The notes under the pieces were generated by a model. It was given only the letters and a program-made list of their open reading frames with translations. It was not told the DNA's origin and did not search any database. A stretch of 64,000 bases of DNA from Limnohabitans sp. (lineage in GTDB: Bacteria > Pseudomonadota > Gammaproteobacteria > Burkholderiales > Burkholderiaceae_C): positions 91,667-155,666 of the forward strand of contig NZ_JAOASQ010000038.1 in assembly GCF_030158565.1 (NCBI RefSeq), in the 5' to 3' direction. Made by a program: the position numbers and the translations under genes. Below, one piece after another: positions 22,282-62,368 of the stretch (position 1 is its first letter; every line of letters begins with the position of its first letter).

Positions 22282-23484
22282 TCAAACCCGCTCGATGATC
22301 AGCGCAATGCCCTGACCCACACCGATGCACATGGTGCACAGCGCGTAGCGGCCGCCCGTGCTGTGCAGGCGGTTGATGGCGGTGGTGGCCAAACGGGCAC
22401 CGGAGGCACCCAGCGGGTGACCCAGCGCGATCGCACCGCCCCAGGCGTTGACACGGGCGTCGTCGTCTTTCAGGCCCAGCATGCGCAGCACGGCCAGGCC
22501 TTGTGCGGCAAAGGCTTCGTTCAGTTCGATCACATCGATCTGGTCCAGCGTCAGGCCAGTCTGGGCCAGCACCTTGAGGGTGGCAGGCGCGGGGCCAATG
22601 CCCATGATGCGCGGGGCCACGCCAGCAGTGGCCATGCCGACCACGCGCGCTTTGGGGGTCAGGCCGTTCTTGGCCGCGGTGGCCTCATCGGCCAGCAGCA
22701 AGGCGCATGCGCCGTCGTTCACGCCCGAGGCGTTGCCTGCGGTCACGGTGCCGTCTGGGCGCACCACACCTTTGAGCTTGGCCAACGCTTCAAGGCTGGT
22801 TTCGCGGGGGTGTTCGTCGGTGTCAACGATGATGGCGTCGCCCTTTTTCTGGGGGATGCTGACGCCCACGATTTCACGGGCCAGGTGACCGGCCTTGATG
22901 GCCGCCACCGCACGCAGCTGGCTGTTGTAAGCCATCAGGTCTTGCGCTTCGCGCTCGATCTTGAAGTCGGTCGCCACGTTCTCGGCCGTCTCGGGCATGG
23001 AGTCCACGCCGTACTGGGCCTTCATCAGCTTGTTCACAAAGCGCCAGCCAATGGTGGTGTCGTACACCGCATTGGCGCGGCTGAAGGCGCTTTCGGCCTT
23101 GGGCATGACAAACGGGGCGCGGCTCATGCTCTCCACACCACCGGCGATCATCAGGCTGGCTTCACCGGCCTTGATGGCACGCGCTGCGGTGCCCACAGCA
23201 TCCAGGCCCGAGCCGCACAGGCGGTTGAGGGTAGCGCCCGGGACATCGATCGGCAAACCGGCCAGCAAGCTGCTCATGTGGGCCACGTTGCGGTTGTCTT
23301 CACCGGCCTGGTTGGCGTTGCCGTACAGCACGTCGGTCACCGAAGCCCAGTCCACGTTGGGGTTGCGGGCCATCAGGGCGCGCAGGGGCACAGCGCCCAG
23401 GTCGTCGGTGCGCACGCTGCTCAAAGCGCCACCGTAACGGCCGAAGGGGGTGCGGATGGCGTCGCAAATGTAGGCTTGGTTCAT
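22282..23484 (-). CDS. pcaF: Acetyl-CoA acyltransferase / 3-oxoadipyl-CoA thiolase
   Basis: MNQAYICDAIRTPFGRYGGALSSVRTDDLGAVPL, TLNRLCGSGLDAV, NEAFAAQGLAVLR, GGAIALGHPLGASGARL, CIGVGQGIA. Confidence 0.88.
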   Translation of the reverse strand: MNQAYICDAIRTPFGRYGGALSSVRTDDLGAVPLRALMARNPNVDWASVTDVLYGNANQAGEDNRNVAHMSSLLAGLPIDVPGATLNRLCGSGLDAVGTAARAIKAGEASLMIAGGVESMSRAPFVMPKAESAFSRANAVYDTTIGWRFVNKLMKAQYGVDSMPETAENVATDFKIEREAQDLMAYNSQLRAVAAIKAGHLAREIVGVSIPQKKGDAIIVDTDEHPRETSLEALAKLKGVVRPDGTVTAGNASGVNDGACALLLADEATAAKNGLTPKARVVGMATAGVAPRIMGIGPAPATLKVLAQTGLTLDQIDVIELNEAFAAQGLAVLRMLGLKDDDARVNAWGGAIALGHPLGASGARLATTAINRLHSTGGRYALCTMCIGVGQGIALIIERV

Positions 23485-23566: not shown

Positions 23567-23766
23567 GCAAGGGGCCTGTGCGGCGCTGCCCGGGCTCAGA
23601 GGCGCTTCGCTTTGCCACATCGCCCGAACAGCGCCGCACAGGCCCCTTGCTCGATTACAGGCTTGATTTGCCCCTTGCCCACGCTGGTGGGTTGGGGTCA
23701 GGGGCTGGGGTGATGTGGCAAAGCGAAGCGCCTCTGAACCCCAGCCCCTGACCCCAACCCACCAGC
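23567..23766. repeat. Compound inverted-repeat element: two hairpins with mutually complementary 26-nt loops (A-B-A'-C-B'-C')
   Basis: A 23567-23588 / A' 23629-23650 (22 bp perfect); B 23596-23621 / B' 23712-23737 (26 bp perfect); C 23683-23711 / C' 23738-23766 (29 bp perfect). Confidence 0.95.
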
Positions 23767-23799: not shown

Positions 23800-24237
23800 A
23801 TGCTGATTCAACCTTCACAAGCCGATGTGCGGCGATTTTTTTGTGGCGTTTACGCCAAGGCCAAAACAGCGGCTCCGCTGGAGCCGATGGAAATGCTGGT
23901 GAGCCAATGGATCGACGAGCACCCGGAATACCACGCTGAACTGGCGGATGTGGACGCGGCGCTGGCCAGCATGCTCAAAGCAGACCCCAACAAGGAAAAC
24001 CCGTTTTTGCATTTGTCCATGCACCTGTCGATCAGCGAGCAATGCAGCATCGATCAGCCACGAGGCATTCGCCAGGCGGTGGAGTTGCTGACGCACAAAC
24101 TCAACTCACTGCACGACGCGCACCACCAAGCCATGGAGTGCCTGGGCCGCATGGTCTATGAAAGCCAACGCGCCGGCCGCATGCCCGACGGCGCGGCCTA
24201 CATCGACTGCGTGCAAAGGCACGCGACCAAGGACTGA
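23800..24237 (+). CDS. DUF1841 family protein
   Basis: VRRFFCGVYAKAKTAAPLEPMEMLVSQWIDEHPEYHAEL, NPFLHLSMHLSISEQCSIDQPRGIRQ. Confidence 0.85.
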   Translation: MLIQPSQADVRRFFCGVYAKAKTAAPLEPMEMLVSQWIDEHPEYHAELADVDAALASMLKADPNKENPFLHLSMHLSISEQCSIDQPRGIRQAVELLTHKLNSLHDAHHQAMECLGRMVYESQRAGRMPDGAAYIDCVQRHATKD

Positions 24238-30213: not shown

Positions 30214-30289
30214 TGGTGCCGCTTGTCGGATTCGAACTGACGACCTACCGCTTACAAGGCGGGTGCTCTACCAACTGAGCTAAAGCGGC
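30214..30289 (-). tRNA. tRNA-Thr(TGT) with encoded CCA
   Basis: Reverse complement GCCGCTTTAGCTCAGTTGGTAGAGCACCCGCCTTGTAAGCGGTAGGTCGTCAGTTCGAATCCGACAAGCGGCACCA; anticodon loop CTTGTAA. Confidence 0.97.
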
Positions 30290-61494: not shown

Positions 61495-62313
61495 AATTAA
61501 TTGGGGTCAGATCCCAATTAATTTGAATTTCTTTTTCGGCTGAGATTAATTGGGGACAGATTCATCACTCTGTCTTTTTGAAAGGCCTTCCCGCCTTGGC
61601 TGGCAAGAGCCTGCGCGGCGTGGACTGCTGCAACTCTTGCACAAACTGGGGGGAACCCATGGCCCATCCCGACAAGGCACTTTTGGTGAGTTGGTCTTTT
61701 TCCGATGCTGCCAATCCTGCGTGAACCAGTTCGAGGTAGGCCGCTTCACGCGCAAATGGCGTATTGCCCAGGCCCCAAAACAGGGCGTGTGGCGTCACCA
61801 ATTTGTCGCTCACCTGCCCAATACAGTGCCTGTGGCTGGACCATTTGAAGTCGGCCGCCTGCGCGACTATGCCGGCACGCACCGGGTTCAGATCGATGTA
61901 GACCATGCAAGCCAAAAGATAGCGCTCACTCTCAATCAAATTGCTGCGGTAACGGCCTTCCCACAAGGTGCCGGTCCGCTGATGGCGCAAATTGAAGTAA
62001 CGCACATAGCTGCGCCCCACGGCTTGCATGAGTTTGGGCACACCTTCATCCGTTTCAGGCGTGGCCAGCAAATGAAAATGGTTGTCCATGATCATGTACG
62101 CATGAATGGCCACTTTGAAAATCGCCGCTTGCTCACCCAGCAGCGTCAGCATTTTTTCCCGGTCAGCGTCATCCCGCACGATGGCCTGGCGGTCATTGCC
62201 GCGCTGGATGACGTGGTGCGGATAAGCGGCGACGGTGAGACGGGGTTGGCGGGCCATGGGTTGCGAGGAACAATCAAAAGAAACAGTTTAATTGGAATCT
62301 GACCCCAATTAAA
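61495..62313. mobile_element. RAYT-type element with palindromic inverted ends
   Basis: Left end 61497-61521 TTAATTGGGGTCAGATCCCAATTAA and inverted right end 62288-62312 match at 24/25; encloses tyrosine transposase. Confidence 0.8.
61565..62257 (-). CDS. REP-associated tyrosine transposase (Y1_Tnp/IS200-like)
   Basis: YPHHVIQRGNDRQAIVRDDADREKMLTLL, HUH motif MIMDNHFHLLATP, QAVGRSYVRYFNLRHQRTGTLWEGRYRS. Confidence 0.93.
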   Translation of the reverse strand: MARQPRLTVAAYPHHVIQRGNDRQAIVRDDADREKMLTLLGEQAAIFKVAIHAYMIMDNHFHLLATPETDEGVPKLMQAVGRSYVRYFNLRHQRTGTLWEGRYRSNLIESERYLLACMVYIDLNPVRAGIVAQAADFKWSSHRHCIGQVSDKLVTPHALFWGLGNTPFAREAAYLELVHAGLAASEKDQLTKSALSGWAMGSPQFVQELQQSTPRRLLPAKAGRPFKKTE

Positions 62314-62368
62314 TCAAGATGCCATGCTCGTGACTGACAGTGGCGGGATTTGCCTTTAGGCTCGGCGC

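Follow-up and report, generated by a model that had tools for sequence, protein, structure and literature searches.

Two inverted hairpins between pcaF and a DUF1841 gene

The 64,000-nucleotide stretch of Limnohabitans DNA analysed here (the window) carries two long hairpins between pcaF, which encodes a 3-oxoadipyl-CoA thiolase (22282..23484, minus strand; TIGR02430, 690 bits), and a gene for a DUF1841 protein (23800..24237, plus strand; PF08897, E 4e-51), both flanking genes lying outside the element. Hairpin 1 (23567..23650, 84 nt) is built of two 29-nt arms (23567-23595 and 23622-23650) around a 26-nt loop, or core (23596..23621, minus strand), that reads TCAGAGGCGCTTCGCTTTGCCACATC on the plus strand and is near-invariant across loci and species. 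Its wobble-tolerant folding strand is the minus strand, on which 5' arm, loop GATGTGGCAAAGCGAAGCGCCTCTGA and 3' arm follow each other and the covariance model matches with 97 bits. Beyond a strandless spacer of 32 bp (23651..23682), whose sequence and length vary among orthologs, hairpin 2 (23683..23766, 84 nt) is inverted relative to hairpin 1 and has the plus strand as its folding strand (covariance model 101 bits on plus, 52 on minus); its arms (23683-23711 and 23738-23766) are complementary at 29/29 positions and its loop (23712..23737, plus strand) reads GATGTGGCAAAGCGAAGCGCCTCTGA, the exact reverse complement of loop 1. In both, the apex read from the sequence is GCGAAGC, a C-G closed GNA triloop (23604..23610 on the minus strand in hairpin 1, 23723..23729 on the plus strand in hairpin 2), and 33 nt separate the end of hairpin 2 from the DUF1841 ATG at 23800.

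Recomputation confirms two hairpins with mutually reverse-complementary 26-nt loops, as a preliminary description of the locus had it. The 2x2 internal loop which that description placed in hairpin 1 exists on the plus strand only, where CC faces AA; the minus strand has UU facing GG instead and therefore folds without interruption. Compared with shuffled sequences, the hairpins fold with z-scores of -8 to -12, as DNA or as RNA (0/200 shuffles are as good), their RNA folding energies reach -74 to -76 kcal/mol, and the computed fold of the whole region is two separate hairpins. Because cultured isolates such as Limnohabitans sp. MMS-10A-192 (L138) and T6-20 (L135) carry the same pair at the same site, an assembly error, which the preliminary description had kept in mind, is ruled out. 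The sole Rfam match of the window is a tRNA gene (30217-30289, minus strand).

The hairpins belong to a family with recurrent loci in Limnohabitans

The core occurs in 50 of 90 Limnohabitans species (0 for a reversed control pattern), and five times in the window's own genome, at three loci of which the pcaF/DUF1841 pair is one. Elsewhere in that genome, outside the window, other tips such as GATTTGCTGGCGCGAAGCGACTGATGA coexist with the main type (L323, L324, L325, L338), and two contig ends (C13 and C16; L001, L002) share one hairpin, the assembly having broken inside the palindrome. Since assemblies break in this way, copy counts from draft genomes are underestimates. The 210 distinct core matches collected resolve into nine recurrent loci (about nine in the genus) and some rarer ones. 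The recurrent loci adjoin pcaF/DUF1841, polA and a thrB-like kinase gene, a PPIase and a U32 peptidase gene, the hpc hydratase/aldolase pair, trxB/rpmB, an amino-acid decarboxylase gene, an ATP-dependent DNA ligase gene, gap, and etfA with an acyl-CoA dehydrogenase gene; these names were read from translated sequences by inspection, those of pcaF and DUF1841 alone resulting from searches. Copies are mostly intergenic, with every gene orientation represented. A spacing of ~7 kb between some copies was considered as a sign of a gene-bearing unit and rejected, as it reflects two fixed loci.

All close pairs are inverted (42/42), with core-to-core distances of 97-209 bp and a constant order at any given pair locus; many loci carry a single hairpin. 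When orthologs of the DUF1841 locus were gathered through the neighbouring gene, independently of the core (n=70), 19 had the pair, 9 a single hairpin and 42 neither; the exact loop is present in 40 of the 47 hairpins at this locus, and the cores of its pairs lie 109-182 bp apart. A DUF1841 leader, as once suggested, or a riboswitch-like element is not supported: copies of the element occur at numerous unrelated loci whatever the orientation of the genes, and close relatives show clean losses.

Near-invariant loops on rewritten stems

Across this family the loop hardly changes, and the stem has repeatedly been rewritten without loss of pairing. At the DUF1841 locus the stems form at least three very different sets with little shared sequence, and between Limnohabitans loci the outer 22 nt of the arms differ about as much as shuffled sequence does, except for CL0/CL6. 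A gapless alignment of 68 diverse elements nevertheless shows two-sided changes at 29/29 stem pairs, most of which display four Watson-Crick types; 95% of cells are paired, and the covariation score is 0.81 against 0.17 for shuffled and at most 0.15 for slid alignments (0/500 shuffles reach the score). Homologs thus bear out the earlier idea of two inverted members of a repeat family whose core is fixed and whose stems have diverged yet remain paired: the arrangement recurs, and its pairing is kept.

Covariation extends into the loop, with a change from G-C to T-A at loop positions 4-23 and from G-C to C-G at 6-21. Because these two pairs covary, we model the apical part on the GATGTGGC strand as tandem G.A, U.U, a pair, U.U, three pairs, AAA and GC(GAA)GC. 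A fixed loop on a rewritten but paired stem suggests that one particular strand must fold. In one genome (G061, L229), the two loops at pcaF/DUF1841 share a compensated variant, TCATAGG...CCAAATC, that 12 of the 13 other copies there lack, which suggests exchange within the pair or loop complementarity.

The mismatches left in the stems are unequally distributed between the strands. At stem positions 8-25, read on the TCAGAGG strand, 101 A.C mismatch events stand against 30 G.T when copies are split by orientation, and 87:30 (p 1e-7) when they are grouped by locus alone; these A.C mismatches are G.T(U) wobbles on the opposite strand, the one that reads GATGTGGCAAAGCGAAGCGCCTCTGA. The bias is found in both orientations of the copies relative to genes and is consistent across loci, and therefore follows the loop, independently of genomic strand and of the direction of transcription. 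For the other genera the G.T excess amounts to 96:2, a figure inflated by the use of a model of that strand to collect the copies. Selection cannot be separated completely from biased mutation.

Loops flip in place and copies are lost

At trxB/rpmB, two sets of orthologs (L038/L039 and L089/L041) have matching flanks and stems and opposite loops, and in the hpc operon two groups include both loop orientations between matching flanks. Several such flips occur at single loci and none was seen in pairs. Template switching between the arms of an inverted repeat homogenises the arms and inverts the spacer (PMC8604942), and loop inversions have been described as its footprint (PMC8794818); by analogy, the in-place flips between orthologs correspond to a known trace of this process. 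In two copies (L230, L027), the arms to the left and right of a single loop differ in origin.

Losses are seen as well. One relative whose DUF1841 protein is 98% identical (L217) lacks both hairpins with clean outer ends; we considered it as an uninserted empty site and rejected this, a residual GCCAGC suggesting a deletion instead. Another (L234) lacks the loop and the second arm of hairpin 1.

The wider family has been mobile

A search with the covariance model (R2) in 141 sampled genera of the family Comamonadaceae found the architecture in 14, Limnohabitans and 13 others, and none outside the Comamonadaceae-type family among 300 genomes drawn across the order. The other genera have related tips, such as GATTTGGCGAGCGCAGCGAGTATGA and GATTTCAAAAAGCGAAGCGTATGA, and of 34 hairpins across the wider family, 31 retain the C(GNA)G apex. 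In several species of one genus, and in others, a hairpin is inserted in frame inside valS, one species having an uninterrupted gene; a DNA methyltransferase gene likewise contains a hairpin in frame, in both orientations. Copies at unrelated sites are alike over 72-92 bp only, arms included. Near-identical units at unrelated sites and in-frame copies within genes indicate that the unit has been mobile, in agreement with the non-autonomous mobile repeat envisaged in the preliminary description, and the extent of the similarity makes the whole hairpin the most likely mobile unit. The search for a recent insertion with a close empty site returned none, the valS insert sitting in a divergent linker.

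Several other leads were followed and dropped. Matches to a loose consensus across the order, GATTT..GCGNAGC..ATGAG, are mostly chance occurrences in coding sequence without stems, and two near-core matches outside the genus (L079, L080) are likewise stemless and due to chance. Hairpin pairs 0.9-1.4 kb apart in other genera are not gene-bearing units: ordinary genes lie inside them, or the pair lies within one gene. In a trmJ-like gene of another genus (L299, L301), an element copy is immediately preceded by a 'SVRPELVEG'-type repeat that is translated in frame, so that two unrelated repeats are adjacent in one protein.

The searches identified no transposase or binding protein for the family. 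The window does contain a RAYT-like gene (61565-62257, minus strand; Y1_Tnp, with NF047646 below cut-off), which shows no sign of mobilising the hairpins: it is flanked by palindromes of the AATTGGGGTC type (61495-61523 and about 62289-62314), unrelated to the hairpin family, and 28/28 genomes tested, including genomes without the core, carry a single Y1_Tnp gene or a few of them. For a phage or plasmid origin there was no trace, the exact or variant core being absent from the viral contigs searched and the core having no plasmid match.

Comparison with known repeat families

A limited search of the literature on Limnohabitans and Comamonadaceae repeats returned no description of the family, which is apparently an undescribed ~84-base palindromic repeat family of Limnohabitans and related freshwater bacteria. 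The closest parallels are REP, BIME and REPIN elements (GTAG and CGTC classes), which are also small extragenic palindromes, often inverted dimers and sometimes inside genes, with G.T wobbles in the stem and several stem variants that retain complementarity (PMC3733652). Known REPs, however, have short loops on stems of 5-13 bp, with GTAG or CGTC conserved at the foot (PMC3733652), whereas here the stem measures ~29 bp, conservation resides in the apical 26 nt and no tetranucleotide is conserved at columns 1-4 or 81-84 of the 68-element alignment. Given the lack of a foot tag, the length of the stem and the lack of a RAYT linked with the same repeat, assignment to the GTAG/CGTC class was rejected.

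The Rickettsia palindromic elements (RPE) resemble the family in that they are palindromes, with a length of about 100-150 bp, and occupy intergenic sites as well as in-frame positions inside conserved protein genes (PMC2229807); compared by description, not sequence, they differ in their unrelated host, and RPE descriptions are without the invariant loop and free arms (PMC2229807). The in-frame insertions in valS and the methyltransferase gene make the family RPE-like by type, not descent. Beta-proteobacterial repeat elements (BRE) are 75-91 bp, GC-rich, lie between and within genes with an orientation not tied to replication, and have been reported from Comamonadaceae (Polaromonas, Delftia, Rhodoferax, Acidovorax) and Bordetella; they are described as tandem and alignable over their full length, not as hairpins (PMC3110155). 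Set beside this published description only, the hairpins are alike in size, GC content and host range (PMC3110155), and a relation is possible; in the 300 genomes drawn across the order, our model found nothing outside the Comamonadaceae-type family.

Like MITEs (Correia/NEMIS, RUP, ERIC), the elements are short non-autonomous repeats with inverted repeats, and some MITEs affect neighbouring transcripts; in MITEs, however, the terminal repeats are conserved between copies, whereas here the arms vary and the centre is conserved, so that a MITE defined by conserved ends was rejected on the divergence of the outer 22 nt. The attC sites of integrons are strand-specific imperfect hairpins with conserved unpaired or mismatched features and otherwise variable sequence. 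Their conserved boxes lie at the base of the stem and their tip varies; here this is reversed, the foot columns being among the most variable, and an attC site was rejected.

Discussion

The reading that we favour, with a probability of about one half, is that the pcaF/DUF1841 hairpins represent, in inverted arrangement, two members of a REP/RPE-like family of palindromic elements that is mobile in relatives, fixed in Limnohabitans and kept foldable on one strand. The unit would be the whole hairpin, about 82-84 bp, in which a conserved apical part joins two ~29-nt arms whose sequence is free, and may have spread as such via a folded single-strand intermediate. The Limnohabitans copies would now be fixed and would remain under selection for folding of the GATGTGGC strand, regardless of gene direction; template switching during replication would generate the paired changes in the stem and the flips of the loop, which selection on that one strand would filter. 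One-strand folding fits a DNA hairpin (single-stranded or extruded) bound by a putative protein slightly better than an mRNA element: C(GNA)G hairpins are exceptionally stable in DNA, and this tip together with independence of orientation favours DNA, while the frequency of wobbles and the operon positions are compatible with RNA.

A transcribed structured RNA is accordingly the competitor that fares best, possible if clearly less probable than the favoured reading: the GATGTGGC strand would act within mRNAs or short RNAs, its apical part bound by a protein or RNase that would, for example, stabilise or cleave transcripts, a role suggested for NEMIS and REPs. Stem covariation together with one-stranded G.U-type wobbles is a classic mark of RNA, the computed RNA folds reach -74 to -76 kcal/mol, and several copies lie in probable operons or just past stop codons (hpc operon, etfA/acyl-CoA dehydrogenase, gap, decarboxylase). 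Against RNA, orientation is free with respect to genes (both ways at the same locus and flanks, in inverted pairs, inside ORFs), the wobble bias tracks the loop and not the gene, and no match at the Rfam 15 gathering score was obtained for the element in the window or in 20 loci of relatives; weak miRNA-precursor scores reflect the long hairpin only.

More speculatively, the ~10 folded-hairpin sites per chromosome, one-stranded and independent of gene orientation, might constitute a recognition system that serves the host, for a putative protein binding extruded or single-stranded DNA. The loop would then be the address and the stem mere support, drifting without limit through template switching and selection. 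We regard this extension as rather unlikely.

Purely mutational upkeep, in which template switching maintains the palindromes and flips the loops, nothing selects for stem or strand and gene conversion between copies keeps the loops alike, appears less probable still. The loop flips and multi-base compensatory changes are its published footprint (PMC8794818, PMC8604942), and the variant shared by the two loops in L229, absent from most other copies of that genome, would also fit. But it predicts equal numbers of A.C and G.T mismatches instead of the consistent excess observed, and leaves unexplained both a fixed loop amid changing spacers and stems and the compensatory pairs inside that loop. 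That the pair is one device, its loops B and B' pairing (kissing or as an alternative duplex) to switch between two states, is improbable: although close pairs are always inverted, hold a single order per locus and are free of the flips seen at single loci, many loci have one hairpin, the core-to-core distance varies (97-209 bp), the region folds in silico as two separate hairpins and ordinary REPs are commonly inverted dimers too (PMC3733652). Loop-loop pairing, which the preliminary description saw as one form that the design allows, is thus not supported as its essence, but the uniform inversion of close pairs leaves room for the arrangement to matter.

Conserved ends are what usually identifies a palindromic repeat in bacteria; in this family it is the tip that stays constant, and the arms vary freely. 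One genus thereby offers many natural experiments at the same loci, in which stems have been replaced, loops flipped and copies deleted. The family could be used to ask how compensatory changes arise, by template switching or by mutation in steps that pass through wobbles, and whether selection acts, in some bacterial repeats, on the folding of one DNA strand instead of RNA.
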